From Bacteroidota bacterium (GTDB lineage: Bacteria > Bacteroidota > Bacteroidia > Chitinophagales > Chitinophagaceae): a stretch of 56,862 nucleotides of DNA. Each line of letters opens with the position of its first letter. Within the stretch, counting starts at the first letter, position 1. The notes beneath the pieces were generated by a model, which was given only the letters and a program-made list of their open reading frames with translations, was not told the DNA's origin and did not search any database. The position numbers and the translations under genes are program-made. The stretch spans positions 1-56,862 of the forward strand of contig JAFDXI010000051.1 in assembly GCA_018268035.1 (NCBI GenBank), given 5' to 3'. Positions 1 through 23,400 of the stretch are shown piece after piece.

Positions 1-722
1 TCGTCAACAATAAAGCAATTAAAGCTTTAGGTTTTAAAAATCCATACGATGCTTTAGGAAAAACCATTTTGGTAGATGATAATAATAATGCAACCATTGT
101 TGGTGTAACTGCCGATTTTGACAATGCGTCTCTCCAGGATGAAAGCACTCCTGTAATGATGTTTAATTGTGCAACATGGGTGGCCATTGCCAGTATTGAA
201 ATGAACACAACTGTTAATGCAGCCACTATTGCTTCTATTCAGAAAAGCTGGGAGTCATTGTATCCTGATAACATTTTTAATGCGATGTCACTGAACGATT
301 ACATAAAGCACAAAGCATTTTACCTGATACAGGATATTATGTATAAGGGTTTTAAAATTTTTGTATTTCTTTCTATCGTCATCGGCTGTATGGGATTGTA
401 TGGCCTTGTTGATTTCCTTGCACTGCAGCGAAAAAAGGAAATTGGTGTACGCAAAGTATTGGGTGCTTCAGCAAGAGGTATTGTTTATCTTTTTTCCAAA
501 GAATTTTTGTGGTTGATTGCTATTGCGTTTGTTATAGCTGCTCCGTTGGCCTACCTGGCAATGAATGCATGGCTGCAAACATTTGCAAATAGAATTGAAA
601 TACATGCTGGTTATTTTATAATCGCATTTTTTATAAGCATTGCTATCGCTGTAATTACAGTGGGTTATCAATCTGTAAAAGCAGCAATGGCCAACCCGGT
701 AAAGAGTTTGAGGACAGAGTGA
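1..722 (+). CDS. ABC transporter permease, MacB/FtsX family, C-terminal part (5' end outside window)
   Basis: The open frame runs from base 3 without a stop, so the gene starts before the window; any internal start is an artefact. The visible part is the end of the second periplasmic MacB-type domain (it begins NNKAIKALGFKNPYDALGK) followed by the last FtsX domain with three membrane segments. The paralogue hallmark KKEIGVRKVLGAS follows the first of these segments. It ends NPVKSLRTE, the unmodified C-terminus shared with the next two permeases. The protein is an inner-membrane permease half of a MacB-like system; neither this gene nor its neighbours encode an ATPase or fusion protein. Substrate is unknown. 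Confidence 0.9.
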   Translation, partial: VNNKAIKALGFKNPYDALGKTILVDDNNNATIVGVTADFDNASLQDESTPVMMFNCATWVAIASIEMNTTVNAATIASIQKSWESLYPDNIFNAMSLNDYIKHKAFYLIQDIMYKGFKIFVFLSIVIGCMGLYGLVDFLALQRKKEIGVRKVLGASARGIVYLFSKEFLWLIAIAFVIAAPLAYLAMNAWLQTFANRIEIHAGYFIIAFFISIAIAVITVGYQSVKAAMANPVKSLRTE

Positions 723-812: not shown

Positions 813-821
813 TTGATCCAA

Positions 822-3224
822 ATGTTTAGAAATTATTTTAAAACCGCATTCAGGAACCTTGGCAGAAATAAAATATATTCTGCCATCAACATTGTTGGAT
901 TGAGTATTGGTCTTGCTTGTGCCATGCTGATTATTTTGTATGTAAAAGATGAAGTGAGTTATGACCGCTTCCTGAATAATTCAAATAATATTTACCGAAT
1001 CGTTACTCAGAATGTGGATGTAAATGGTAAGGGTGAAAGAAAAGATCCAAACACCGGCTTTTTGCAAGGGCCCCGTTTTGCACAAAATGTTCCGGAGATA
1101 AAAAGTTTTGTGCGCATTCAGCAGGGAACTGAAAATATAAAACTCGGAACAGAAGTGAAAGACCAGGAATTATTATATGTGGACTCTTCATTCTTCAATA
1201 TTTTTTCTTTTCCATTGGTGAGTGGCAACCGTGCCACATGTTTAAAAGAACCACTTTCTGTGGTGCTTTCTGAAGATGCAGCCAAGAGACAGTTTGGAAC
1301 TACTGATGCAATTGGCAAAATCGTGATGCTAAAAGATGACAGTGTTTTTGTTCCGCATAAAGTAACTGCTGTTACAAAAAATTGCCCTCAAAACTCATCG
1401 ATTAAATTTGATATGCTGTTGCCATTTAAAGAATCTCAGGCTGATGCTTCCAACAGTGAAAACTGGTTCAACTTTTTTCTCAACACTTTTGTTGTACTTA
1501 ACCCTCATGCAAATATTCAGGCTGTTGAATCAAAAATGCAAAAATTTTATACTGGTGATTCAAAAGATGCCATTGAATCTTTAAAAAAACAATTTGGTGA
1601 TGAAGTAGATAACTGGAAAGCCATCTATCTCTTGCAGCCAATGCTTGATATGCACATGAGCACTGAACTTCCATCACAGAATGGACTTTCAGGAGCCAGC
1701 AACCCGATGTATTCTTATATACTTTCAGGTATAGCTTTATTTATTTTATTAATAGCATGTATCAATTTTGTAAATCTTACCGTTGCCCGTTCAGTGAAAC
1801 GTGCCAAAGAAATCGGAATAAGAAAAGTAGTTGGCGGTAGCAGGAAACAACTCATCTTTCAATTCCTGGGTGAATCGCTTTTGTTATGCACAATCGCTTT
1901 TGTCTTGGCAATAGTAATTGTACAACTGGTGCTGCCGGTATTTAATGATCTTTCAAACAAATCACTGGCTTTATCTTATTTATTTGATGTAAAACTAATA
2001 GCAGGTTATATTTCATTATTCATACTCACTTCATTGCTTGCCGGTTTTTATCCGGCGCTTGTTTTGTCCGGATATAACCCGGTGAAAACTTTATACAGCC
2101 GTTTCAGTCTTGCAGGGAAAAATTATTTGCAAAAATCATTGGTGGTTTTACAATTTGCATTGGCATCTTTTTTAATCATTGCCACTTTTACTATTTACAA
2201 ACAATTTAATTTTCTAACTACAGAAAATTTAGGCTATGATGATCAGGATATCATTACTGTTGAAAAGAACTTTAAATCGCATAATGAAGCCTGGCTGTTT
2301 AAAAATGAATTATTGAAAAATTCCAACATTATAAGTGTGGCTCCACGAAACGATGGCTCCTGGAGCACAATGGCAAGACTCAGCAACGATTCATCTATCC
2401 AATTTGATTATGAAACTGTGGATGAATCTTTTTTGCCGACATTAAAGATTCCAATTGTTGAAGGAAGAAATTTTTCTACTGCCTTTCCTGCTGATTCTGC
2501 CACTTCTGTTTTAGTGAATGAATCATTTGTAAAAAAAGCAGGATGGAAAAATCCAATTGGTCAAACAGTTAATTTCTGGTACAGGAATAAAATCTATTCT
2601 GTAATCGGAGTTGTAAAAGACTATCATTACCAATCATTGAACAGGGAGATTGGGCCGCAATTATTTACCATGAACCCGGATAATTCTTATGGTACGGTAT
2701 TTATAAAAATTAAACCCAACACTGCATCATCCGCATTAAAAACAATACAAAGCAAGTTCAAACAGTTGTTCCCTTTGAGTCCGTACAGTTATGTATTTAT
2801 GAATGACAAAAACATTAAAGCTTATGATGCGGAGGCAAAATGGAAACAGATAATGTTATTCGGTGCGATACTCACTATATTTATTTCGTGCATTGGGTTG
2901 TTTGGCTTATCTGTTTTATCAGCAGAAAAACGCACCAAAGAAATTGGCATAAGAAAAGTTTTAGGTGCATCAGTAAACAGGGTAGTGGTGATACTTTCAA
3001 AAGATTTTTTAAAACTGGTTGCTATTTCATTAATCATTGCAATACCTGCGGCATGGATAGTATCCAAGAAGTGGCTGGAGAATTATCCATATCGAATAAC
3101 ATTAAGCTGGTGGCTGTTTGCATCAGGTGCAGTATTGGTGGTGTTGATTGCTTTAGTAACAGTAAGTTTCCAGGCAATAAAAGCGGCAATGGCAAATCCG
3201 GTAAAGAGTTTGAGAACAGAGTGA
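822..3224 (+). CDS. ABC transporter permease, MacB/FtsX family (800 aa)
   Basis: Full-length member of the array. Order of parts: a first membrane segment (about 20-42), a periplasmic MacB-type domain (about 45-240), an FtsX domain with membrane segments (about 285-405), a second membrane/periplasmic half (about 430-640), and a final FtsX domain (about 675-795). Each FtsX domain has the family signature after its first helix (RAKEIGIRKVVGG and RTKEIGIRKVLGAS). The ATG at 822 is preferred over a TTG at 813 because it gives the paralogue-conserved start MFRNYFKTAFRN. MacB-type permeases act with an ATPase in mechanotransmission or efflux; no ATPase is nearby, so the partner must be encoded elsewhere. 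It ends with the unmodified RTE tail. Confidence 0.93.
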   Translation: MFRNYFKTAFRNLGRNKIYSAINIVGLSIGLACAMLIILYVKDEVSYDRFLNNSNNIYRIVTQNVDVNGKGERKDPNTGFLQGPRFAQNVPEIKSFVRIQQGTENIKLGTEVKDQELLYVDSSFFNIFSFPLVSGNRATCLKEPLSVVLSEDAAKRQFGTTDAIGKIVMLKDDSVFVPHKVTAVTKNCPQNSSIKFDMLLPFKESQADASNSENWFNFFLNTFVVLNPHANIQAVESKMQKFYTGDSKDAIESLKKQFGDEVDNWKAIYLLQPMLDMHMSTELPSQNGLSGASNPMYSYILSGIALFILLIACINFVNLTVARSVKRAKEIGIRKVVGGSRKQLIFQFLGESLLLCTIAFVLAIVIVQLVLPVFNDLSNKSLALSYLFDVKLIAGYISLFILTSLLAGFYPALVLSGYNPVKTLYSRFSLAGKNYLQKSLVVLQFALASFLIIATFTIYKQFNFLTTENLGYDDQDIITVEKNFKSHNEAWLFKNELLKNSNIISVAPRNDGSWSTMARLSNDSSIQFDYETVDESFLPTLKIPIVEGRNFSTAFPADSATSVLVNESFVKKAGWKNPIGQTVNFWYRNKIYSVIGVVKDYHYQSLNREIGPQLFTMNPDNSYGTVFIKIKPNTASSALKTIQSKFKQLFPLSPYSYVFMNDKNIKAYDAEAKWKQIMLFGAILTIFISCIGLFGLSVLSAEKRTKEIGIRKVLGASVNRVVVILSKDFLKLVAISLIIAIPAAWIVSKKWLENYPYRITLSWWLFASGAVLVVLIALVTVSFQAIKAAMANPVKSLRTE

Positions 3225-3302
3225 GATACAATTACGAATTAAAAATTATGAATTAAAAATTATCAATTAACCATTATCAATTAACCATTAACCATTAATA
3301 TG
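3225..3302. repeat. AT-rich intergenic repeat between permeases
   Basis: Tandem variants of AATTACGAATTAAAAATTATGAATTAAA and ATTATCAATTAACC-type words fill the gap. No palindromic element is present in this copy. The tract runs up to the ATG of the next permease. Confidence 0.6.
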
Positions 3303-5681
3303 ATGTTCAGAAATTATTTAAAGACTGCGTGGCGGAATATCAGGAAGAACAAAGTATTTTCTTTCATTAATATTCTTGGATTGACTATCGGCATTACGGT
3401 GTGCATGATGATCTACCTGTTTATCATGAATGAATTCAGCATGGATAATTTTCATAAAAATGGCAATAACATATATCGTGTCATGCGCAACTTTAAGCAT
3501 GATGGAAAATCTTCTGCTGTTGCCTATTTATCCGGTCAATATGCTCCGGCTTTACTTAATGATTTTAATGGTGAAATAAAAAAAGCAGTTCGTGTAATTC
3601 AAAATGACAATCTCGTAACCGTTGGCGATCGTTCTTTCCACGAAAAAAGAGTATTGGATGTTGACACAGATTTTTTTAACCTCTTTACTTTTCCATTGAT
3701 TGATGGCAACCCAGCTACTGTCTTGAAAGAGCCCGGTAATGTTGTGTTAACTGAAGCGACTGCAAAAAAATATTTCGGAAGCAAAGAAAATGCGATGGGA
3801 AAAATGATCATGTTTGACAAAGAACTTCCATTAAAAGTGGCAGGTATTGCCAAAGATGTTCCTTCCAATTCAAATCTTGTGTTTGATATTGTTGTGCCAA
3901 TTGAAAATTATAAGGACGATGGTATTATGACAACATGGATTAATAATGGGCTTTATACTTATATTGAATTGGATAATCATACAACGCAAGCTCAATTAGA
4001 AAAACAGTTACCTGCATTTATGGAAAAATATATGGGCAGCGATATGCGAAAATTCGGTTTTAATTTTTCACTCACACTTACCCCATTAAAGGATATTTAT
4101 TTTGAAAACACTTCATTCGACAACTTAAAACATGGTGATAAAACTGTTGTATATATTTTTCTTTCCATTGCTGTTCTCATTCTATTGATTGCCTGTATCA
4201 ATTTTATGAATCTTTCTACCATTCGTGCAGCCGATCGTTCAAAAGAAGTAGGATTGAGAAAAGTATTAGGTGCATTTCGCAGCAGCCTAATCTGGCAATT
4301 CATTGGTGAATCGGTTTTATTGGTTACCATTTCATGTTTGGCATCAGTCTGTTTACTCATGCTGGTAATGCCGTGGTATAACCAGTTGCTCGGTTACTCT
4401 TTGACTGTCTCATGGAATGCATTGCCGATATGGTTGTTTTTGATTGGAACCATAGTATTAGTAGGTTTTTTAGCTGGCAGTTATCCTGCATTTGTTTTGT
4501 CGGCGTTTCCACCTGTACAGGCTTTAAAAGGTAAGCTACGTTTGGGCAAAGGCGGCTCTACTTTCAGGCAGGTTTTAGTTGTGATACAATTCAGCATTTC
4601 TGTTTTTCTGATTGTTGGTACTATCGTTATCACCAGGCAAATGAATTATGTAAAAAATAAACAGTTGGGATATAACAAAGAGCAAACTGTTTTGGTACCG
4701 ATTGACAACAATGATATTTTCAATAATAAAAATGTATTTAAAGCAGACTTGCAAAATGAAAGTCAAATACAATCTGTATCATTAATGTCAGGAGCGCCAG
4801 GTGGTTTTTTTGATTCTTATACATTTGATGTGGAAGGGCATCATGAAAGGATGAACGCAAATACTGAATTTGCAGATTTTGAATTTGTAAAGACTTTGGG
4901 ATTAAAGATTATTGCCGGAAGAGATTTTTCTTCTCAGTTCCCCACCGACAGTACGAATGCGGTACTAATAAATAAAACAGCAGCTACAAAATTTGGATGG
5001 TCACCGGAACAGGCCATTGGCAAATGGTTACAAAATGCAGTTCGTGATTCAGCGAAGCGTTATGTAGTAGGTGTTGTTGCTGATTTCAATTTTCAATCAT
5101 TGAAAGAAAATATTAATGCATTGGTGATTTCTCCGACAATGGACAGGCGTGTTGCTTTGATAAAACTCAGGCCGGGAAATATTCAGGAAGGTTTGAACCT
5201 CGTGAAAGATGAATATGCAAAAGCTGCCCCGGGTTATCCGTTGGAATATAAATTTTTGGATCAGCAGTTTGATGAAATGTATAAGAAAGATATCCGGCAG
5301 CAGACCATCTTGTCAGTTTTTGCAGCATTAGCCATCTTCGTTGCATGCCTGGGATTATTTGGCCTTGCTTCTTTTACAGCAACAAAACGTTTTAAGGAAA
5401 TTGGTGTGAGAAAGGTATTGGGATCATCAGTGAGAGAGATCGTTATTTTATTGTCAAAAGATTTATTAAAACCTGTTATCATCGCTACCTGTATTGCAAT
5501 GCCTGTTGGTTATTGGGCGATGAATAAATGGTTGCAAAATTTTGCTTACAAAACTTCAGTGAGTGGATGGGTATTTTTATTAGCAGCACTTATCACATTT
5601 TTAATTGCACTGCTGACTGTTTCCTTAAAGGCAATGAAAGCAGCAAGAGCCAATCCTGTAAAGAGTTTGAGAACAGAATGA
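3303..5681 (+). CDS. ABC transporter permease, MacB/FtsX family (792 aa)
   Basis: Same two-half architecture as the 822-3224 gene. The hallmark sequences are RSKEVGLRKVLGAFRSSL in the first FtsX domain and RFKEIGVRKVLGSSVREI in the second. Two ATGs stand in tandem at 3300 and 3303; the second fits the paralogues' MFRNYLKTAWRNIRKNK start, but the first is possible. It ends NPVKSLRTE without the palindromic insertion seen in later copies. The first three permeases lie head to tail and may be co-transcribed, although the gaps are repeat-filled. Confidence 0.93.
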   Translation: MFRNYLKTAWRNIRKNKVFSFINILGLTIGITVCMMIYLFIMNEFSMDNFHKNGNNIYRVMRNFKHDGKSSAVAYLSGQYAPALLNDFNGEIKKAVRVIQNDNLVTVGDRSFHEKRVLDVDTDFFNLFTFPLIDGNPATVLKEPGNVVLTEATAKKYFGSKENAMGKMIMFDKELPLKVAGIAKDVPSNSNLVFDIVVPIENYKDDGIMTTWINNGLYTYIELDNHTTQAQLEKQLPAFMEKYMGSDMRKFGFNFSLTLTPLKDIYFENTSFDNLKHGDKTVVYIFLSIAVLILLIACINFMNLSTIRAADRSKEVGLRKVLGAFRSSLIWQFIGESVLLVTISCLASVCLLMLVMPWYNQLLGYSLTVSWNALPIWLFLIGTIVLVGFLAGSYPAFVLSAFPPVQALKGKLRLGKGGSTFRQVLVVIQFSISVFLIVGTIVITRQMNYVKNKQLGYNKEQTVLVPIDNNDIFNNKNVFKADLQNESQIQSVSLMSGAPGGFFDSYTFDVEGHHERMNANTEFADFEFVKTLGLKIIAGRDFSSQFPTDSTNAVLINKTAATKFGWSPEQAIGKWLQNAVRDSAKRYVVGVVADFNFQSLKENINALVISPTMDRRVALIKLRPGNIQEGLNLVKDEYAKAAPGYPLEYKFLDQQFDEMYKKDIRQQTILSVFAALAIFVACLGLFGLASFTATKRFKEIGVRKVLGSSVREIVILLSKDLLKPVIIATCIAMPVGYWAMNKWLQNFAYKTSVSGWVFLLAALITFLIALLTVSLKAMKAARANPVKSLRTE

Positions 5682-13339: not shown

Positions 13340-13810
13340 CAACCAGGATATTGAATATTATTTCTTTGATGAAAAATTAGCAAGCGGATATGAGCAGGAA
13401 TAAAAAAGCGCAACAATTGTAAAAATCTGCATCCGGGTTATCTATCTTCTTCGCTTGTATGGGTTTATTTGGTTTGACAATATTAACTGTTACAAGCCGT
13501 ACAAAAGAAATCAGTATCAGGAAAGTAATGGGTGCTACTGTAACACAATTCTCAACTCAACTTTCAAAAGATTTTTTAAAGCTTATTTCTATTTCATTAA
13601 TTATAGCAATACCTTCAGCCTGGCTTGTTTCCAACAAGTGGTTGGAGAATTAACCATATAGAATTTCACTCAGTTGGTGGTTGTTTGCATCATGTGCGGT
13701 ATTGGTTGTATTGATTGAATTGATCACAGTGAGTTTCCGGGAAATAAAGCAGCGGTGGCGAATCCGGTGAAGAGCATGTCTATTAACAGGTAGATTTGAG
13801 AACAGAGTGA
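13340..13810 (+). pseudogene. Decayed C-terminal fragment of a MacB/FtsX permease
   Basis: In shifting frames the sequence reads FFDEKLASGYEQE, stop, KSATIVKI; then GLFGLTILTVTSRTKEISIRK with VMGATVTQF; then LSKDFLKLISISLIIAIPSAW and SNKWLEN, stop; then PYRISLSWWLFAS and TVSFREIK. This is the last ~110 residues of an array permease with at least two frame changes and two stops. The 3' end carries the 20-bp palindromic insertion (13775-13794) and the vestigial GAGAACAGAGTGA. It probably belonged to the same gene as the N-terminal relic at 5781-5905. Confidence 0.8.
13775..13794. repeat. 20-bp palindromic element inserted in permease 3' end (relic copy)
   Basis: CATGTCTATTAACAGGTAGA stands between AAGAG and TTTGAG, which are adjacent in the uninterrupted permeases (at about 703-714, 3207-3218, 5664-5675). 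It is the same site and the same 20-bp length as in the copies at 17552, 20744 and 23302. Confidence 0.8.
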
Positions 13811-13837
13811 AAACAATTAAAAATTAAAAATTACGAA

Positions 13838-14254
13838 TTACGAGGTATAAAAATTATTCACAAAATCAGCTGCATTTAGAATGGGAATATTTTGAAATGG
13901 GTGTAAGATGAGTAAGTCTCTATCACCAGTGATAATGCAGGATGCATTTGCTGCTACTGCCAGTTCAAGGAATTTATTGTTATTGGGGTCACGGCATGCA
14001 GTAACTGCTGTTTTTATTGGCAGCATTAAAGTTTCTTCTTCAAATTCTCTAAGGGTATCCAGCCTGGCATGCAAAGAAATGTATTTGTCAAATTTAGTCC
14101 TGATAAAAGTTGTTTTAAATTCGAGAAAAGTTTCGGCAGAACTAACAATTATACCTAAGGTACGTGCTCTATCAAATGCCAGCCTGCTTATAGAGTGTTG
14201 TAATAAATGTGCACTGATAAGGGCATTGGTATCAAAAACAAATTTATCAATCAT
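13838..14254 (-). CDS. PIN-domain toxin of a type II toxin-antitoxin pair
   Basis: 138 residues covering one PIN domain, a predicted Mg-dependent ribonuclease fold. Candidate metal-binding acids are D8 (FVFDTN), E41 or E45, D89 (CRDPNNNKFLELA) and D111/D113 (ITGDRDLLIL). It overlaps the upstream antitoxin gene by 8 bp, the usual translational coupling of such modules. It lies antisense to, and about 30 bp beyond, a decayed permease 3' end. A close paralogue at 17643-18065 has the same relation to a permease 3' end. The RNA target is unknown. Confidence 0.9.
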   Translation of the reverse strand: MIDKFVFDTNALISAHLLQHSISRLAFDRARTLGIIVSSAETFLEFKTTFIRTKFDKYISLHARLDTLREFEEETLMLPIKTAVTACRDPNNNKFLELAVAANASCIITGDRDLLILHPFQNIPILNAADFVNNFYTS

Positions 14255-14477
14255 CTTCTTTCAGTAGTTCTTCGAGCAACTCTTGGGTGAGGCCATTTTT
14301 AGCAGCTTCTTCAGACAAAGCATCCAGCATTTGTGAATACTTTTCATAAGATAGGTCATTCGTAGTTTTCTTCAACCACAGATTGATTATATCGTTAATT
14401 ATTTTCTGTTTCGATTTATCAACATTACGAAAGGCCCTTGCAACATTATCATCTACTTCAATCACTATACGATCCAT
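14247..14477 (-). CDS. Antitoxin-like partner of the PIN toxin
   Basis: 76 residues from the ATG at 14477, or 83 from an upstream ATG at 14498. The start MDRIVIEVDDNVARAF matches the layout of the paralogue at 18058-18288 (MEKIIIELDDATSKKW). The middle is a charged helical region, and it ends LTQELLEELLKEDD, like the paralogue's LTEEALNDILKEND. The first part looks like a short beta strand/helix DNA-binding module, and the acidic tail probably masks the toxin. Function is inferred from the 8-bp overlap with the toxin gene and the family pattern. Confidence 0.8.
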   Translation of the reverse strand: MDRIVIEVDDNVARAFRNVDKSKQKIINDIINLWLKKTTNDLSYEKYSQMLDALSEEAAKNGLTQELLEELLKEDD

Positions 14478-14554
14478 TTTTATAAAATTTATATTCATCA
14501 AATTTACAAAAATTATTCTGTGAAGTTGTTAATAACAAATCCAAAAAATGGATG

Positions 14555-14680
14555 TCATTTATAAAAATTATTCACAAAAGCAACTGCATATAAAATGAAA
14601 ATATTTTGAAATGGATGCCAGTTCGGAAGACAAGGTTGCAGGATGAATAATTCTTTATTTCTGGTGATGATGAATGACGT
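14555..14680 (-). pseudogene. Decayed 3' fragment of a third PIN toxin gene
   Basis: The minus strand encodes SFIITRNKELFILQP, then HPFQNIFILYAVAFVNNFYK. This matches SCIITGDRDLLILHPFQNIP and the following ILNAADFVNNFY of the intact toxin at 13838-14254. The DNA also aligns directly (TATAAAAATTATTCACAAAA shared). An insertion separates the two blocks, and the N-terminal half is missing. It is a dead copy next to a live one. Confidence 0.75.
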
Positions 14681-15179
14681 TCTTGATGATGAATATTTCT
14701 GATCCAATAATATTTTTGTTGAACATATCATGCGATAATAATTCCTGTTTTTCAGTCTTACCAGCAACCTTTTTTTGTCTTATTTAATCTTACATTTTTT
14801 GATTGCATAAGTTTTGTTTCTATGATAATGTTTTCAATCTTTATTAGAATTTTATTTCCTGTATTTAAAATTGATTGGATTTTTCAGCACTAATAGGTTC
14901 ACAATTTCAAGAAGAATAATTAGAAAATATTAAATATGGTGTAAAGATTTGCCTGCCTCAAAGCCGCACAAACACTGTTCGTTATCGTACACTAAATAGG
15001 AAAAATAAAAAACAAGCTCTTTAAAAACAATTACTTATAAACTGGCATTTACATTGACGGAAACAGGGAGTTAGCAATTACGAACCTGCCTGCCGCAGAT
15101 AGGTTACGAATTAAAAATTACGAACGTGCCTGAGTTAGAAAGGTTAACAACTAAAAATTAATATTTCAATAATAATAGC
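14681..15179. other. Intergenic region with candidate dyad and two degenerate palindromic elements
   Basis: No coding sequence was recognised. At 14976-14991 there is a near-palindrome TGTTCG-N4-CGTACA. Palindromic element copies stand at 15086-15104 (CCTGCCTGCCGCAGATAGG) and 15126-15144 (more decayed), embedded in AATTACGAA / AATTAAAAATTACGAA words that run up to the next permease. The dyad is the only visible candidate control site for the permease at 15180. Confidence 0.5.
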
Positions 15180-17570
15180 ATGATTAAAATATTTCTCAAA
15201 TCAACCTGGCGTAATTTAAAACGCAATAAAATATTCGGCATCCTGAATATTGCCGGGTTAACAGTAGGTATTGTTTGTGCTGCGCTGATATTTTTATGGG
15301 TGGAATATTCTTTTGAATATAACACGGCGCTTAAAGATTCTGACAAAGTTTATATCGTAAAAAATAACCAGAAGTATGGCGATGATATTTATACAATGGA
15401 TGCTACCTGCGGGCCTTTAGCACACAATATGCAACGTGAAATACCTGGGTTTGAAAATGCAGTGAGAACATTGAACGACCAACCTGTTTTTACAGTAAAT
15501 GATAAGTCTTTAGCACAAAATGGAATGTATGCTGATTCTGATTTCTTCAGTGTATTTCAATTTCCAATCATTGAAAAAACTTCAAATGATTTTCTTTCGA
15601 ATCCATATAATATTGCTATCTCTCAAAAAATGGCTAAGGCTTTTTTCGGTAATGAAAATGCGCTTGGAAAATCTATTCGTTACAACAGGAAACAGGATTT
15701 TATAGTAGCTGCTGTTTATGATGTCCCTTCTATAAATATGTCAATGCAACCGGATTGGGTAATACCAATTGCTTATAATTTTTCTGATTCTTCATTCAGG
15801 AAACAATGGAGCGACTGGGGTAACTGTGGAATAAGAACTTATGTTACTTTACAGGATAATGCTTCAGTGAATAAAATAAACAATCAACTGGAAGGATATA
15901 TTTATTCCAAATCTGACAGTACAGTAAACCAATCTGTTTTTTTATATCCTTATTCAAAGTTAGGATTGTACAACAGTTTTAAAAACGGTAAAGAAACTTC
16001 CTCTGATGGCAACATTAAATACATAAAAATGTTTTCACTGATTGCGGCCATCATCCTGTTGATTGCCTGTATTAATTTTATGAACCTGTCAACTGCAAGA
16101 AGTGAAAAACGTGCAAAAGAAATCGGTTTGAAAAAAACTGTTGGTGTCACCCGTCACCAACTGATTTTCCAGTTTATTACTGAAAGTATTCTGATAGCGA
16201 TGTTTGCTGTTGTTCTTTCAGTAATCCTGTTGGCATTATGTGTACCTGCATTTGGTAACCTCATCAATACACCTTTGCACCTGGATATTCTTAAACCTGT
16301 TCATTTTATTTCATTATTGCTCTTAGGTTTAATATGTGGCATTGTTGCCGGAAGTTATCCTGCATTTTATCTTTCTTCATTCAACCCGGTTCGTGCATTA
16401 AAAAATCAAACATCAAAGAAGGCAGGCAGGGCTTATATTTCCCGTAAGGTTCTGGTAGTGGTTCAATTCTCTGCATCCATCATCCTGATCATTGCAAGCA
16501 TCGTAATTTTTCATCAAATCAATTATACCAAAGACCGCGACCTTGGTTTTAATAAAGATAATATCATGGTAGTGCACAGCACTGAAGCGCTCAATAAAAA
16601 ATTTAATGTGCTTCGCCAGAATGTATTGGCGACAGGAATGGTAAATGATGTATCCATGTCATGGTCATCTATGTTTCAGATGTATAGCAATGGCGGAGGT
16701 TTTAAATGGAGTGGTCATGACACTAAAAAAGATGACGCATTGATAACAGTCGAAGGCATTGCGCCTAATTATTTACAATTGATGGGAGTGAAGTTAAAAG
16801 CAGGCAGGTATTTTTATGAAAATTCAAAAGCTGACAGCAACAATGTAATCATCAATCCTTCATTGGCAAAACTAATGGGAAAAGAAGGCCGTATTGGTGG
16901 AAGGATTTACAGGAGTGATGATGGCAGTGATGCAGTTACAATTGTTGGTATCACTGATAATATTGTTTATAATAATATTTTCAGCAATCCTCAACCTGCT
17001 ATATTTTTTCCGATTTCTGATGTGTCTTTTGCTTCACTGTTTATTAAACTAAAACCGGGCAAAGATGTATCACAACAAATTACTTCTATAAAAACAGCAT
17101 TTAAAAATACAGATAGCCAGTTTCCGTTTGATTACAGTTTTTTGGATGATGATTTTAATCACCAGTTCAGTAATGTTTTATTTATCGGGAAACTTGCTTT
17201 GCTTTTTGGTGGGTTAGCTATTTTTATTTCTTGTCTTGGTTTGTTTGGTTTATCAGCATTTATGGCTGAACAAAGAACAAAAGAAATAGGTGTGAGAAAA
17301 GTGTTGGGCGCATCAGTATTTTCCATCACACAATTATTAAACAGGGATTTCTTAATACTCGTTGGATTTTCATACTTAGTAGCTTTTCCATTAGCATGGT
17401 GGTTTATGAAAGACTGGCTGAATAATTATGAATACAGGATACAAATCAGTTGGTGGATTTTTGTATTGGCAGCATTCATATCAGTAATGATAGCATTGAT
17501 AACTGTGAGTTTCCAGGCGATCAAAGCAGCGATAGCAAATCCGGTGAAGAGCCTGTCTACCGACAGGTAG
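15180..17570 (+). CDS. ABC transporter permease, MacB/FtsX family (796 aa, modified C-terminus)
   Basis: Same two-half architecture as the 822-3224 gene. It starts MIKIFLKSTWRNLKRNKIFG. Hallmarks are RAKEIGLKKTVGVTRHQL and RTKEIGVRKVLGASVFSI. The last residues are NPVKSLSTDR instead of NPVKSLRTE, because a 20-bp palindromic element (17552-17571) interrupts the ancestral end and supplies a new TAG stop; the old GAGAACAGAGTGA survives just downstream as non-coding sequence. The gene is flanked on both sides by PIN toxin-antitoxin modules on the opposite strand, and its 3' end converges on one of them. Confidence 0.93.
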   Translation: MIKIFLKSTWRNLKRNKIFGILNIAGLTVGIVCAALIFLWVEYSFEYNTALKDSDKVYIVKNNQKYGDDIYTMDATCGPLAHNMQREIPGFENAVRTLNDQPVFTVNDKSLAQNGMYADSDFFSVFQFPIIEKTSNDFLSNPYNIAISQKMAKAFFGNENALGKSIRYNRKQDFIVAAVYDVPSINMSMQPDWVIPIAYNFSDSSFRKQWSDWGNCGIRTYVTLQDNASVNKINNQLEGYIYSKSDSTVNQSVFLYPYSKLGLYNSFKNGKETSSDGNIKYIKMFSLIAAIILLIACINFMNLSTARSEKRAKEIGLKKTVGVTRHQLIFQFITESILIAMFAVVLSVILLALCVPAFGNLINTPLHLDILKPVHFISLLLLGLICGIVAGSYPAFYLSSFNPVRALKNQTSKKAGRAYISRKVLVVVQFSASIILIIASIVIFHQINYTKDRDLGFNKDNIMVVHSTEALNKKFNVLRQNVLATGMVNDVSMSWSSMFQMYSNGGGFKWSGHDTKKDDALITVEGIAPNYLQLMGVKLKAGRYFYENSKADSNNVIINPSLAKLMGKEGRIGGRIYRSDDGSDAVTIVGITDNIVYNNIFSNPQPAIFFPISDVSFASLFIKLKPGKDVSQQITSIKTAFKNTDSQFPFDYSFLDDDFNHQFSNVLFIGKLALLFGGLAIFISCLGLFGLSAFMAEQRTKEIGVRKVLGASVFSITQLLNRDFLILVGFSYLVAFPLAWWFMKDWLNNYEYRIQISWWIFVLAAFISVMIALITVSFQAIKAAIANPVKSLSTDR

Positions 17571-17571
17571 A
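17552..17571. repeat. 20-bp palindromic element inserted in permease 3' end
   Basis: CCTGTCTACCGACAGGTAGA lies between AAGAG and TTTGAGAACAGAGTGA, which are contiguous in the first three permeases. The arms CCTGTC and GACAGG are perfect inverted repeats. It differs from the intergenic element CCTGCCTGCCGGCAGGCAGG at only five positions, all transitions. Confidence 0.85.
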
Positions 17572-17599
17572 TTTGAGAACAGAGTGATGTTCAATTACG

Positions 17600-17623
17600 A
17601 ACCTGCCTGCCGGCAGGCAGGTT
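17600..17623. repeat. Perfect 24-bp intergenic palindrome
   Basis: The core CCTGCCTGCCGGCAGGCAGG (17602-17621), with AA before and TT after, is a fully self-complementary 24-mer. It stands in AATTACG / AAAAATTACGAATTA words between the permease 3' end and the PIN toxin. It is the best-preserved member of the element family in the window. Confidence 0.9.
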
Positions 17624-17642
17624 AAAAATTACGAATTACAAA

Positions 17643-18065
17643 TTATGGAGTGGTTTGATAATTATTTAAAAAATCAAAGGCATTTAAAATGGGGATATTT
17701 CGAAATGGATTTAGTATGAGTAGGTCTTTATCACCTGTGATAATGCAGGAAGCACTTGCAGCAATTGCTAATTCAAGAAATTTATTGTCTTTAGGATCGC
17801 GGCAGGCATTGATAGCTTCTGAAGGGAAAAACTGCGTAATACTATTTTCAATTTCATTAAATAATTCCAGTCTTTCTTCATCTGAAATAAAATACCGATC
17901 AAATTTTTTTCGAAATATCACCTCCTTAAATTCATTAATGCTTTCAGACGAAAAGGATATTTCTCCTAATAATATTGCTTTTCTTATGGCTTTTCTATTT
18001 ACAGAATCAATCAATAAGGAAGCGCTTATTAAAGTGTTGGTATCAAAAACAAAGTATTTAATCAT
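17643..18065 (-). CDS. PIN-domain toxin of a type II toxin-antitoxin pair (second copy)
   Basis: 140 residues. It is a close paralogue of the toxin at 13838-14254: FVFDTNTLISASLL near the start, ACRDPKDNKFLELAIAASAS and CIITGDKDLLILNPFRNIP near the end. Candidate catalytic acids are D8, E41/E45, D90 and D112/D114. It overlaps its antitoxin gene by 8 bp. Gene order, strand and distance to the permease 3' end match the first module, which indicates duplication of a permease-end plus module unit. Confidence 0.9.
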   Translation of the reverse strand: MIKYFVFDTNTLISASLLIDSVNRKAIRKAILLGEISFSSESINEFKEVIFRKKFDRYFISDEERLELFNEIENSITQFFPSEAINACRDPKDNKFLELAIAASASCIITGDKDLLILNPFRNIPILNAFDFLNNYQTTP

Positions 18066-18288
18066 TCTCTTTCAGAATATCATTAAGGGCTTCTTCTGTG
18101 AGACCGCGCTGCTTCATTTTTTCACCAACTTCATCGAGGTAGGCAAGAAAATTTTCTTTTCTGGCATCATCCAATATCTTGCGTATGCTTTCAGAAATCC
18201 TTTCGGAAATTTCTTTCCTGAATTTGTCAGGAGCAAGAGACCATTTTTTGCTGGTGGCATCATCCAATTCAATTATTATTTTTTCCAT
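18058..18288 (-). CDS. Antitoxin-like partner of the second PIN toxin
   Basis: 76 residues, starting MEKIIIELDD and ending LTEEALNDILKEND, which parallels the partner at 14247-14477. The middle is strongly charged and predicted helical (DKFRKEISERISESIRKIL). The ATG at 18288 has no alternative nearby. It is divergent from the permease that starts at 18348, so the 59 bp between them must hold both promoters or the permease is read through from upstream. Confidence 0.8.
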   Translation of the reverse strand: MEKIIIELDDATSKKWSLAPDKFRKEISERISESIRKILDDARKENFLAYLDEVGEKMKQRGLTEEALNDILKEND

Positions 18289-18347
18289 AATAATAAATTT
18301 TATTGCTTTTCAAATTTACAAAAACTAAATCTTTAGCACACACTACC

Positions 18348-20762
18348 ATGGTCAAAAATTATTTCAAAACTGCCTGGCGCAACATCAGAAAGAATAAACT
18401 TTTTTCTTTCATCAATATTATTGGTCTATCGCTTGGTATTGCAACGTGCTTTATTATCATGCTGTATGTTCAGGATGAATTGAGCTATGACCGCTTTAAT
18501 AAAAATGCAGATAATATTGTGCGAATTGCTTTTAAAGCAAATATCAGCGGAGGCGCTATCAACGAATCTTCTGTGATGCCGCCGGTAGCCCAAACAATGA
18601 AAAATGATTTTCCGGAAGTAAGGGATGCTACACGGTTGATGGATTATGGAACAATAAAGATTTCATACAAAGACAAAACTTTTGACAACGACAGGCTTGC
18701 TTTTGTTGACCCAAATTTCTTCAGCATTTTTACCTTACCCCTGGTAACAGGCAATCCAAACACAGCTTTGATGCAACCCAACAGCGTCGTTTTATCTGAA
18801 GCTGCTGCAAAAAAATATTTTGGTAACGAAAATGCTATTGGCAAAACGTTTCGGCTCGTTGATGATTCAGCAAACTATATTGTGACGGCTGTAATGAAAA
18901 ACATCCCCTCCGGGTCGCATTTTCATTTTGATCTTTTTGCTTCTATGAAAAGCACGAAAGATGCAACATCTGACTCCTGGTTAAAGAGTGCCTATTATAC
19001 ATACCTGCTCCTGAATCCCGGTACAGATTTGAAAAAAATGGAAGCAAAGTTTCCAGCGATGGTTTCCAAATATATGGGCCCTCAGATACAACAACAAATG
19101 GGCCTGAACCTGAATGAATTTACAACAAGAGGAAACACTTTAGGATTTGTTCTCCAACCATTAACTGCAATTCATTTATACTCACACACCACCAATGAAC
19201 TTGAACCCGGTGGCAACGCTACTTATGTGTATATTTTTGGAGGCGTGGCTATTTTTATGCTGATCGTTGCCTGTATCAATTTCATCAATTTGTCAACTGC
19301 GAGCGCTTCAAAAAGAGCAAAGGAAGTGGGCATAAGAAAAGTGGCTGGTTCCGGAAGATTTCAACTCATCAGCCAATTCATATCGGAGTCAATATTGATA
19401 ACCTTGCTTGCTTTGATAGTTGCTTTTATATTAGTGAAAATACTATTGCCGGAATTCAATTCTATTGCAGGAAAACAATTGATCTTTGATCAAAATCCTG
19501 TTCTTGCATTTGTTGGATTAGGATTGTTCGTGGGTATCATCGCAGGCATTTACCCTGCATTCTATTTATCGTCTTTTAAACCTATCGCTGTATTAAAAGG
19601 AAAACTTACCGGCAATCATAAAAGTTTTGGTTTGCGCAGTAGTCTTGTTGTATTTCAGTTCTTCATTTCAGTTGTTTTAATTATTGGAACAATTGTAGTG
19701 TATCAGCAAATGAAATTCATGCAAAATAAAGACCTTGGTTATAACAAAGAACAACTGATTACGATTCCTAATTCGAATGTATTGGGAAAAAATGAAACTG
19801 TATTCAAACAACAAATGCTGCAAGACTCCAGAATAGTAAATGCGACTGCATCGTGGTACAAACCCGTAGGGCCAAGTGATATAAACAACGCATTGGCTTA
19901 TCCAATGGGAAATGACAAACTGGTAGTGAATGGCATGGACTATCATGTAGATGAACATTACATACCAACGATGGAAATGAAAATAGTAAGCGGCCGAAAT
20001 TTTTTAAAAGATTTTCCAACAGATTCTTTTGCAATCATACTTAATGAAGCTGCAGCGCATGCTCTTGGATGGAATGATATAAGCGCTATTGGCAAAACGG
20101 TAATCAGGCAAAATAGTGATAGGGGAAAAAATGTCCCTTTTCATGTAATCGGCGTAGTAAAAAATTTCAATTTTAAATCACTACATGAAGCCATCAGCCC
20201 TTTATATATGACGCTTATGCCGGAAGGCGGATTGATATTCAGGATAAAAACAACCGATGTGGCCGGACTGCTCAAAACCATGAAAAAAAATTGGGATGCA
20301 TACAACACAGGCGAACCATTTACTTACAGTTTCATGGATGATCTTTTTAATAAAACCTATTCAGCAGAACAAAAAACAGGAACGATTCTCAATATTTTTT
20401 CAATACTGATTATTCTTGTTGCCTGTCTTGGATTATTTGGATTGGTAACTTATACTGCAGAACAACGTACCAAAGAAATCGGCATCAGGAAAGTATTGGG
20501 AGCCAGTGTAAGTCAGGTAACACAAATGCTTTCAAAAGAATTTTTAAAATTGGTATTGATAGCATCGCTCATTGCATTTCCCGTTGCATGGTGGGCAATG
20601 AAACTATGGTTGCAAAGTTTTGCTTACAGGATAAATATAAGTTGGTGGGTTTTTGTTGTTGCAGGATTAATTGCAATGCTGATTGCATTGATAACTGTGA
20701 GTTTCCAGACTATCAAAGCTGCAATGGCGAATCCGGTGAAGAGCCTGTCTACCGACAGGTAG
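18348..20762 (+). CDS. ABC transporter permease, MacB/FtsX family (804 aa, modified C-terminus)
   Basis: Same architecture as the 822-3224 gene. ATG 18348 gives the conserved start MVKNYFKTAWRNIRKNKLFS; the open frame upstream to 18303 has no paralogue support. Hallmarks are RAKEVGIRKVAGSGRFQL and RTKEIGIRKVLGASVSQV. The C-terminus is NPVKSLSTDR, created by the palindromic insertion at 20744-20763 exactly as in the preceding permease, which suggests one descends from the other or gene conversion has occurred. Confidence 0.93.
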   Translation: MVKNYFKTAWRNIRKNKLFSFINIIGLSLGIATCFIIMLYVQDELSYDRFNKNADNIVRIAFKANISGGAINESSVMPPVAQTMKNDFPEVRDATRLMDYGTIKISYKDKTFDNDRLAFVDPNFFSIFTLPLVTGNPNTALMQPNSVVLSEAAAKKYFGNENAIGKTFRLVDDSANYIVTAVMKNIPSGSHFHFDLFASMKSTKDATSDSWLKSAYYTYLLLNPGTDLKKMEAKFPAMVSKYMGPQIQQQMGLNLNEFTTRGNTLGFVLQPLTAIHLYSHTTNELEPGGNATYVYIFGGVAIFMLIVACINFINLSTASASKRAKEVGIRKVAGSGRFQLISQFISESILITLLALIVAFILVKILLPEFNSIAGKQLIFDQNPVLAFVGLGLFVGIIAGIYPAFYLSSFKPIAVLKGKLTGNHKSFGLRSSLVVFQFFISVVLIIGTIVVYQQMKFMQNKDLGYNKEQLITIPNSNVLGKNETVFKQQMLQDSRIVNATASWYKPVGPSDINNALAYPMGNDKLVVNGMDYHVDEHYIPTMEMKIVSGRNFLKDFPTDSFAIILNEAAAHALGWNDISAIGKTVIRQNSDRGKNVPFHVIGVVKNFNFKSLHEAISPLYMTLMPEGGLIFRIKTTDVAGLLKTMKKNWDAYNTGEPFTYSFMDDLFNKTYSAEQKTGTILNIFSILIILVACLGLFGLVTYTAEQRTKEIGIRKVLGASVSQVTQMLSKEFLKLVLIASLIAFPVAWWAMKLWLQSFAYRINISWWVFVVAGLIAMLIALITVSFQTIKAAMANPVKSLSTDR

Positions 20763-20763
20763 A
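20744..20763. repeat. 20-bp palindromic element inserted in permease 3' end
   Basis: CCTGTCTACCGACAGGTAGA, identical to the copy at 17552-17571 and at the same codon position. It supplies the TAG stop. Downstream TTTGAGGGCAGACTGA is the decayed remainder of the ancestral end. Confidence 0.85.
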
Positions 20764-20779
20764 TTTGAGGGCAGACTGA

Positions 20780-20869
20780 GATAATTGATAACTTGCCTGC
20801 CGGCATACAGATTCGTAATTTTTAACTTGCCAGCCGGTAGGCAGGTTCGTAATTCGTAATTAATTAAAC
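20780..20869. repeat. Intergenic repeat tract with two palindromic element copies
   Basis: Copies CTTGCCTGCCGGCATACAGA (20792-20811) and CTTGCCAGCCGGTAGGCAGG (20826-20845) are both followed by TTCGTAATT words. The tract runs directly into the ATG of the next permease. Confidence 0.75.
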
Positions 20870-23310
20870 ATGTTTAAGAATTATTTTTTAGTTGCTCTTC
20901 GTAGTTATAAAAAAGATAAGATAAATACTTTAATCAGTCTTTCAGGATTGATAACAGGATTAACATGTGTAATGCTGATTGTAGCATACATACGTTATGA
21001 AACTTCATTTGATACAAGCTATAGTAATGCCAACAGGATTTACAGGATTGTAAGCAACTGGAAATTTTCATTTGATGGCCGCAAAAGTGGTGAAGCGCCT
21101 GGAACACTTGCACCTGCATTGGTCCGGGAAATACCCGAAGTGGAATCTGAAACACAGATTTCAAACAGACTATTATACGTTCAGCATGGCAATGAAATAA
21201 TGAGCCTTAATAATTCAGGAGTTAATGATAACTTTTTTTCAATTTTTAATTTTAAGCTGTTGCATGGTAACGCCGGTAATGTATTGAATGATAAAAATAA
21301 AATTGTACTTACTGCCTCAGCAGCATTAATGCTTTTTAATACCACAAACATTGTTGGTAAAATATTGGTTGAAAATGATACAACAAGATACATTGTAAGT
21401 GGTGTAGCTGAAGATATACCTCAGAATATTTTTTCAGCACGGAATCATTTACGATGTCGAAAAGACCAGTCAAGGAATTGGATGATTTAAACGCTTTTTC
21501 TTCCTTCCCTTCATTTATTATGTTATCAAAAAATGCTTCCCCAAATATCGTGGAAGATAAAATGAAACAATTATGCAACCGTTATAAAATTACCAATTTT
21601 AAATTTCAATTACAGCCCGTGCAGGACATCCACCTGAATTCTGCATCAATTAATAATGGTTCTACCGGGTTTAATATTTATGATATCAAATATGTTTACA
21701 TCAATGGTTGTATTGCATTGCTTATTTTAATTATTGGCTGTATAAATTTTATCAATTTAACGATAGCAAGGAGCCTGGAAAGAACTAAAGAAGTTGGTGT
21801 TCGCAAAGTGATGGGTGCTCAAAAAAACCAACTCGTGTTTCAGTTTATTGGTGAAACTGCATTGTATTTTATCATTGCAATACCTATAGCATTAATGCTT
21901 GCCATTCTATGTTGGAACGGCTTTATCCATTTGCTGAATATAAATGCAGGCATAAGTTTTTTGTTAAACATCAATGCAATTTTAAACCTCATTGGTGTTT
22001 GCTTTTTGTCAATTATTATTTCAAGTTTGTATCCTGCATTTTTTCTTTCAAGGTTGCAACCGGCAGAAACTTTAAAGGGAGGGTTCATAAGCGGCATGCA
22101 TTTAAACATGGGTCTCAGGAAAATATTGGTAGTGGTGCAGTTCACAATATCAATTGCATTAATTGCAGCAACAATTATTATTCATGCACAACTGAAATAT
22201 CTGAATAACGGACCTTTAGGATTTAATAAAAGCAACCTTGTTAATTTGTACACCCCGTGGAGTACAAATCAAGGTAAGGCATTTAAGAATGAATTACTGG
22301 CAAACCCCAATATTCAGTTTTTTACATATTCAACTGTACATTTTGCAGGGCAATATAGCTCCACCGGTTCTAATGATGACCCTAATGATTCAACGAAACA
22401 AATGTATTTTGCTTTTATTGATGGTGATTTTGATTTTCTGAAAACATTTCAAATACCATTAAGCAGTGGCAGGGATTTTTCTCCTGCTTATCCGTCTGAT
22501 TTACTGGATTACGATTCATTGTTTCAGAAACAAATTCAAAAAAATAAATCCGGCAAGACAACAAATGATGTGACAGATAATCCTTTTTTAATCCTTGCAA
22601 AGCAACCGATAATTATTACTGATGATATGGTAAAAGCGCTTGGACTGAAAAATCCTATCGGCCATACTATCAACATGGGCGCATGCCGGGGAACTATCAT
22701 CGGAACTATAAAAGAATTTAATGGCATCTCTTTAAAAGAAAAGACTCCATTCATTGTAATCAGATGCAGTCAAAACCGCAATGCAGGACAGGCTTATGCA
22801 AGAATAAAAGCAACCAATACCCAGGCAACAATAAGTTACATATCCGGTAAATACAAACAATTCTTTCCAAATGAACAATTCGGTTTTTTTGTAGAAGATG
22901 ATATTGCACACTTATATGACCTTGAATTAAGGCTCACTAAACTGTTTAATATTTTTACCTTGTTTGTTATTGCATTATCGGGCATGGGTTTGTTTAGCCT
23001 TGTTGCATTAATGGTGCATAAGCGTGCAAAAGAGATAGGCATACGAAAGGTGTTGGACGCATCAGTAAATGATGTAATGGTATTAATCAGCAAAGATTTT
23101 TTACGGCTGATAATTATTTCATTTGTTATTGCCACACCTATTACTTACCTGGTGATGTATAAATGGTTGCAGGGATATGCAAACAGAACTGAGATGTCAT
23201 GGTGGATATTTTTAGTTGCCGGCGCTACTGCAATTTTAGTTGCGGTTGTTTGCATTATTTATAAAACAATTGTTGCAGCAAAAGCTAACCCCAGTGAAGA
23301 GCCTGTCTAA
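20870..23310 (+). pseudogene. Frameshifted MacB/FtsX permease
   Basis: The first 190 or so residues (MFKNYFLVALRSYKKDKINT to VSGVAEDIPQN) are in one frame. From 21454 the protein continues in another (MSKRPVKELDDLNAF onward, 618 residues), and the bridging FQHGIIYD is in the third frame, so two small indels lie between about 21430 and 21455. Both FtsX hallmarks remain (RTKEVGVRKVMGAQKNQL; RAKEIGIRKVLDASVNDV, with Asp in place of the usual Gly). A further extra C near 23290 turns NPVKSL into NPSEEPV at the 3' end. It is probably a young pseudogene; sequencing error at the first site is possible. Confidence 0.8.
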
Positions 23311-23321
23311 CGAATGATAGA
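23302..23321. repeat. 20-bp palindromic element inserted in permease 3' end (degenerate)
   Basis: CCTGTCTAACGAATGATAGA stands between AAGAG and TTTGAGGACGG, the same insertion point as the three copies upstream. The second arm has decayed. Confidence 0.7.
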
Positions 23322-23400
23322 TTTGAGGACGGAATTTAATTACGAATTATCAATTAAACATTAGCAATTATCAATTACGAATCAGGAAATAATTATAATC
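23322..23400. repeat. AT-rich TAATTCG-type repeat at end of permease block
   Basis: AATTACGAATTATCAATTAAACATTAGC-type words mark the last such tract in the window. No similar tract was seen after this point, so it marks the right edge of the accessory block. Confidence 0.55.

Follow-up and report, generated by a model that had tools for sequence, protein, structure and literature searches.

A derived 20-bp hairpin insert at permease gene ends in a Chitinophagaceae genome belongs to an ultrashort element family found across phyla

The permease array and its 20-bp insert

The window analyzed here is a 56,862-nt stretch of contig JAFDXI010000051.1 from a Bacteroidota bacterium (Chitinophagaceae, assembly GCA_018268035.1), which was read directly; the host genome is labeled G000, and the labels L, G and C denote loci, genomes and contigs. 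The window carries an array of MacB/FtsX permease genes, four copies of which contain exactly 20 extra bp between GAAGAG and TTTGAG, starting at 13775, 17552, 20744 and 23302 (Table 1). The array permeases ending at 722, 3224 and 5681 read AAAGAGTTTGAG at their ends, without the insert, and close with the residues SLRTE. The exact insert, CCTGTCTACCGACAGGTAGA, stands at 17552-17571 and 20744-20763 (0 expected in 100 shuffles). Both of these intact inserted open reading frames (ORFs) end in SLSTDR instead of SLRTE because the insert holds an in-frame TAG, and the downstream TTTGAG...TGA is kept as a non-coding relic. The insert is probably tolerated because its own TAG changes only the protein end. 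The remaining two copies are degenerate and share the insertion point of the exact ones; that at 13775 is preceded by a permease relic with stops, and that at 23302 follows directly on a frameshift, in an ORF ending in NPSEEPV. A perfect palindrome occurs once in the window, at 17602-17621 between genes (none expected in shuffles), and differs from the insert at five positions, all of them transitions. On the inserted and uninserted ends, the SLSTDR termini with their relic stop regions and the five transitions, direct reading and ORF translations agree with the original prediction.

The inserted state is derived

A protein search of eight genomes of the genus gave 203 matches, of which the best 30 loci were taken, with 29 readable C-terminal ends. 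Among these ends, 28 are SLRTE-like and lack the insert, the exception being the window's own 20744 gene. The sister-species ortholog of that gene (L258 in G007; 88% at the amino acid level over 198 matched C-terminal residues, 76% at the DNA level over 2,044 bp) has a clean empty site, reading GTGAAAAG followed directly by TTTGAGAACG, and comparison of the two genes reveals no target duplication. In a tree of 35 C-terminal sequences, L258 pairs with the 20744 gene (100/99), and 17552, 3224 and 5681 fall in other parts of the tree; long branches lead to several of the window rows, 23302 among them. Since the 20744 gene pairs with an empty ortholog, its insertion postdates the split from the G007 species, barring precise loss in G007. 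In the permease genes the short ends are ancestral and the 20 bp are a later insertion, precise and with no duplication of the target, which upholds the earlier proposal of a small element entering a coding end.

The hairpin family

The insert belongs to a family with the consensus CCTGNC-TRCC-GNCAGG-YAGR, whose perfect form is CCTGCCTGCCGGCAGGCAGG. The original prediction described the insert itself as palindromic; it forms only 5 of 10 cruciform pairs and is therefore not a perfect palindrome, but has instead two alternative hairpins, each with 6 of 6 pairs. Both 6-bp hairpins stay fully paired despite the five transitions, a property of only 16 of the 15,504 possible five-transition sets. 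Covariation was tabulated over 130 places among the matches listed, in 70 genome-by-type rows and with second-strand readings of perfect palindromes omitted. The position pair 5-12 covaries, being complementary in 50/70 rows (shuffle mean 29.9; 0/20,000 shuffles as high). The identical window 20-mer is found in three other families of the phylum: in G244 (L414, intergenic), in G208 (L415, 29 bp before a tRNA-Leu) and in G332 (L405/L417), where a tRNA-Leu fragment that also holds other hairpins carries it in the D-loop, flanked by GGCAGA and CACGC. The window 20-mer is a family variant with defined ends, not a decayed palindrome, and its five transitions are more plausibly the mark of a variant that preserves the structure and also occurs in other genera than the result of drift from the intergenic copy.

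Within G000 the perfect palindrome is rare: allowing up to 3 mismatches, it occurs at 5 places, and the insert itself, at the same threshold, is confined to the two permease ends. A variant element inside an ORF (L003, G000:C21:248-267) encodes NLPAGRQV, in a surrounding sequence that may resemble a secretion-system C-terminal domain. The perfect form is exact in 16/99 genomes including G000, with up to 15 copies per genome (the backward-read control was empty), in at least 116 stretches of general genome contigs and in 33 viral contig stretches. Among the matches listed, record titles with the perfect form name Bacteroidetes, many Patescibacteria groups, Omnitrophota, Nitrospirae, Elusimicrobia, Verrucomicrobia, Planctomycetales, Chloroflexi and Ignavibacteria. 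A degenerate pattern with four positions open has matches in 53/296 genomes of the phylum, the largest count being 31 strand matches per genome.

Insertion sites

Insertion sites were compiled as a deduplicated set of 170; counts of tRNA and ORF neighbors use 162 exact copies and 5,813 control positions. The base before the element is A at ∼47% and T at 8% of the 170 sites (symmetrized), and T is favored after it. Target duplication was rejected as a rule, the flanks at most sites being free of direct repeats; most of those that do occur belong, on visual inspection, to simple or tandem repeats. Hairpin-loop targeting was likewise rejected as a general rule. The junction falls in a loop of the minimum-energy fold in 28% of the 170 empty sites vs 32% of controls, and perfect stems of at least 5 bp around the junction are about two-fold more frequent (14.7% vs 7.7%, p=0.001), which leaves at most a mild preference outside tRNA fragments. 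Sites inside tRNA-like sequence number 7/162 vs 16/5,813 control positions, and at least five more were located by eye (L074, L132, L139, L169 and L176). In the viral contig L169 (IMG/VR), the call at 2239-2330 is a complete tRNA-Met gene that contains the exact palindrome, which we would place in the variable-loop region. In G020 (C2:1.20-1.23 Mb; L348 and L349; 33 kb), 9/10 copies or variants share one insertion point, GAGG/AATC, in an amplified intergenic repeat, and are therefore not independent events.

tRNA fragments and small GIY-YIG genes

For several of the copies at tRNA sites, the host sequence is a tRNA fragment that flanks a short GIY-YIG ORF, and an intact tRNA flanks this ORF at its opposite end. 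Small GIY-YIG ORFs often have this arrangement, an intact tRNA at one end and a tRNA fragment at the other (L315-L344, L385-L413 and others), with short hairpins in the fragment loops, and G328 contains tandem arrays of such units at ∼450-bp spacing. The one tRNA-associated ORF that was scanned matches the GIY-YIG domain (PF01541, E 4.1e-16). Among 20 hand-chosen split tRNA fragments, 14 carry an insert cleanly between adjacent tRNA positions, without target duplication, and all 14 inserts, by our own reading, fall within the D-, anticodon- or T-loop or at its border; against an own estimate of ∼41% loop junctions this bias has a probability of 4e-6, for cases selected after the pattern had been noticed. 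Length variants and nested hairpins also occur in tRNA fragments. One tRNA-Leu fragment (L405/L417, G332:C10) holds three hairpins, one palindrome being split centrally by another in a nested insertion.

A GIY-YIG search of 99 genomes gave a family member within 110 bp in 7 of the 9 best loci and, at up to 2 mismatches, none at any distance within the locus in the remaining 21 of the best 30 (p=2e-5); the query was taken from an element-bearing unit, which is itself one of the 7 positives, so shared descent contributes to this figure. Further GIY-YIG loci from 296 genomes have a family member within 300 bp in 7/29 cases. At the genome level, GIY-YIG (E at most 1e-6) is present in 45/53 element-bearing genomes vs 65/243 others (Fisher 3e-15; family-stratified odds ratio 4.9, p=0.002), an association that is partly built in, some copies lying inside units, and that is uncorrected for kinship within families. 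The corresponding counts for the 99 genomes are 13/16 and 30/83 (p=0.002). The link between element and GIY-YIG genes is correlational, and several observations speak against a role for these genes. Eight of the 53 element-bearing genomes have no GIY-YIG match, G191 being an example (20 strand matches of the family, 10 matches to the Y1 transposase); G163, G169 and G184 have strong GIY-YIG matches and no family match by pattern; and both GIY-YIG/tRNA units of G000 (C169:4567-4767 with tRNA-Asp; C135:8049-8246 with tRNA-Phe and a stop in the ORF) carry hairpins of other sequence. It may also be that the tRNA fragments are no more than neutral sites at which hairpins land.

Spread among the paralogs and candidate mobilizers

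The account that we consider probable is that an ultrashort, non-autonomous mobile hairpin inserted in a permease end and was then multiplied by duplication and conversion, with putative joining into loops or breaks and a GIY-YIG enzyme as candidate helper. The 20-bp element would have entered one permease end, and this end would then have been duplicated together with the PIN-domain gene that follows it. The copies at 13775 and 17552 lie within one duplicated segment (397 bp, 72% identity) that runs through the insert into the PIN-domain gene, and because this longer segment is common to both, a single entry is likely for this pair. On the 13775 side the 17602 palindrome is gapped out of the segment alignment, where repetitive flanks make gap placement uncertain; this is probably a second occupied/empty pair. 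Gene conversion over short tracts of the tandem array would have carried the insert to 20744 and 23302, and the copies at 13775 and 23302 would have decayed afterwards. Identity between 17552 and 20744 is 0.87-0.90 in the last 60 bp and 0.60-0.83 further up, a drop suggestive of a short conversion tract, and segmental duplication combined with such conversion is the likely mode of spread among the permeases. A GTG codon common to the four inserted copies was rejected as a diagnostic mark, as uninserted ends of the genus have GTG too.

How the element moves is a more tentative matter. It may travel as a folded single strand and become joined to DNA at breaks or in exposed loops; for making the breaks, the small tRNA-associated GIY-YIG nucleases would be the best current candidate. 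A possible, though doubtful, elaboration is a two-part mobile system, in which loops of hairpins or of tRNA-like sequence would be cut by a small tRNA-homing GIY-YIG nuclease and a very short hairpin of single-stranded DNA, often the 20-mer, would be joined into the break. The result would be a tRNA fragment resistant to the nuclease, next to the nuclease gene and the intact tRNA; such hairpins would also land at other breaks, such as permease ends, and travel between phyla.

Several points weigh against the favored account. No transposition was observed. The window has no GIY-YIG match, no Y1 match and no encoded mobilizer, and a GIY-YIG ORF lies within 250 bp of only 4/162 exact copies vs 26/5,813 controls (p=0.008). 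Flanking direct repeats of at least 5 bp occur at 10/170 sites (∼6%) vs 0.4% of controls, and the position pair 8-17 covaries weakly (42/70, shuffle mean 35.7, a value reached by 580/20,000 shuffles). The G007 contig stops 4 bases beyond TTTGAG, which makes downstream comparison impossible. As for the spread, the conversion tracts required are short, and the last 30 bp are 0.73-0.90 identical in all 15 pairs without 23302, so the evidence for conversion is suggestive only; independent insertion at the same point may account for 20744 and 23302 and is compatible with the data. The original prediction of a single entry followed by duplication or conversion is thus likely for 13775 and 17552, with 20744 and 23302 possibly independent.

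If the permease end were a hot spot, all four insertions might have been independent, with no conversion at all. The element does recur at equivalent points of different tRNAs, which indicates site preference, and A is favored before the insert and T after it. We nevertheless regard four separate insertions as unlikely, since both intact copies are the same variant, one otherwise absent from the genome at up to 3 mismatches, all four are consecutive within one array, and 13775 and 17552 share the longer duplicated segment.

As mobilizer, the original prediction had suggested a transposase of the kind that serves repetitive extragenic palindromic (REP) elements, here a REP-associated tyrosine transposase (RAYT/Y1, IS200/IS605-like) acting in trans. 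Single-stranded DNA transposition would agree with a palindrome of 20 bp that mostly inserts without duplicating its target, G000 has three Y1_Tnp matches, and G191 combines its family and Y1 matches with the lack of a GIY-YIG match. A RAYT-like ORF of 64 aa (L019 in G051, 1797-1988, minus strand) lies 0.3 kb from the exact copy at 1501, and another (L036) lies 1.6 kb from an exact copy. However, these exceptions represent only 2/164 loci around exact copies (1.19 Mb, scanned with profiles from fetched Y1 loci), an earlier and less sensitive scan of such loci having found none. Y1_Tnp is present in 13/16 element-bearing vs 56/83 other genomes (p=0.38), G048, G059 and G087 have the exact element yet no Y1 match, and the element has no constant GTAG/CGTC end. 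With no genome correlation and almost no neighbors, this mobilizer was rejected, and we hold it to be quite improbable.

Segmental duplication alone can hold for 13775 and 17552, whose segments align into the PIN-domain genes. As the explanation for the whole set it is very unlikely: no PIN gene follows 20744 or 23302, and the nearest tree relative of 20744 is the empty ortholog of another species, so that duplication alone fails for this gene unless the G007 ortholog lost its insert. The opposite polarity, with an ancestral 20 bp lost by deletion from the short ends, is practically untenable, nothing having been found in its favor and the idea being contradicted by the short genus ends and sister-species ortholog, as well as by the presence of the 20-bp unit as an insert at unrelated sites.

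Comparison with known elements

The finding is of a known kind, that of small mobile palindromes such as REP and Rickettsia palindromic elements (RPE); its form here is unusually short, has a double hairpin and crosses phyla. At least one of the defining features tested is lacking for each of REP, RPE and miniature inverted-repeat transposable elements (MITEs).

REP elements and RAYT-associated REPtrons are likewise palindromic repeats of 20-40 bp that may lie in coding sequence and supply the TAG stop of an ORF, and CGTC families without a dedicated transposase are reported from Bacteroidetes (PMC3733652, PMC2817692). The present element is 20 bp long and repeated (5 places in G000, and as many as 15 exact copies in a single relative). 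REP abundance usually exceeds 100 copies per genome (PMC2817692), whereas the maximum here is 31 strand matches across 296 genomes; the element further differs in having no associated RAYT gene as a regular neighbor, in its exact sequence across phyla and in its insertion into tRNA loops. In place of a GTAG/CGTC end the consensus has CCTG...CAGG, and T17, which would give GTAG, occurs in 14/130 places among the matches listed.

RPE are palindromes inside protein-coding genes, tolerated as extra residues, and are also reported for two RNA genes (PMC2229807, PMC3767692); the present element similarly lies in protein-coding genes, namely the permease ends and the L003 ORF. Unlike RPE, which measure ∼100-150 bp, it has 20 bp, crosses phyla and supplies a stop in the window. 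Yeast mitochondrial GC clusters (PMC4478555) are also short GC-rich palindromes with merging, shuffling and conserved structure, for which endonucleases have been proposed as helpers; they differ in length (GC42, 42 nt), in a putative AG target duplication and in their mitochondrial location, whereas the present element is bacterial and has no regular duplication. The tRNA-associated ORFs described here belong to the GIY-YIG superfamily, which includes homing endonucleases (PF01541; PMC1564403), and are comparable in their position next to an intact target and its broken copy; the difference is that they are short, single-domain and next to bacterial tRNAs, with hairpins in the fragment, and that none lies in the window. 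The target site duplication of a DNA-transposon MITE is lacking at the permease site and at the 14 clean tRNA insertions. A search of open-licence literature by title and abstract start found nothing on the 20-mer family or on bacterial tRNA/GIY-YIG/hairpin units, and the element sequence and peptide strings had no match in that literature.

At 20 bp the element, which inserts precisely and is letter-identical across phyla, whether at the ends of permease genes, in the loops of tRNAs or between genes, comes close to the minimum size of mobile elements. A concrete, testable mobilizer candidate is provided by the association, at the level of genomes, with GIY-YIG genes next to tRNAs. For annotation, tails resembling LPAGRQ, PACRQAG or SLSTDR are explained as element-derived, and a class of hairpin-bearing tRNA fragments is exposed.

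Other features of the window

Table 1. Coordinates of the element copies, permease genes and neighboring features in the window.
Feature	Coordinates	Strand	Basis or remark
20-bp hairpin element, intact, permease gene 3' end; gives S-T-D-R and TAG stop	17552..17571	+	direct reading, ORF ends
20-bp hairpin element, intact, identical, second permease gene 3' end	20744..20763	+	sister-species ortholog empty
Degenerate element copy CATGTCTATTAACAGGTAGA at permease relic	13775..13794	+	end alignment
Degenerate element copy CCTGTCTAACGAATGATAGA at frame-shifted permease end	23302..23321	+	end alignment
Perfect 20-bp palindromic family member, intergenic	17602..17621	.	direct reading
Decayed intergenic family member CTTGCCTGCCGGCATACAGA	20792..20811	.	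3 mismatches to degenerate pattern
Decayed intergenic family member CTTGCCAGCCGGTAGGCAGG	20826..20845	.	pattern search
MacB/FtsX-type permease, inserted, end SLSTDR	15180..17570	+	PF12704, PF02687
MacB/FtsX-type permease, inserted, end SLSTDR	18303..20762	+	MacB_PCD/FtsX domain matches
Frame-shifted permease, C-terminal part with 23302 copy	21454..23310	+	N-terminal part 20870-21490
Permease relic, two internal TAA, upstream of 13775 copy	13399..13752	+	
Permease, empty site, junction 3208/3209, end SLRTE	813..3224	+	
Permease, empty site, junction 5665/5666, end SLRTE	3300..5681	+	
Permease cut by window start, empty site, junction 706/707, end SLRTE	3..722	+	
Ancestral permease 3' end relic TTTGAGAACAGAGTGA, now non-coding	17572..17587	+	
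Ancestral permease 3' end relic TTTGAGGGCAGACTGA, now non-coding	20764..20779	+	
Two related PIN_3-domain genes, directly after first two inserted permease ends	13838-14254, 17643-18065	-	part of duplicated segment

The intergenic palindromes are surrounded by AT-rich runs of AATTACG/AATTCGT-like units, at ∼15050-15170, 17590-17650, 20780-20870 and 23330-23380. Similar runs occur elsewhere in the host genome at G000:C177:76563.

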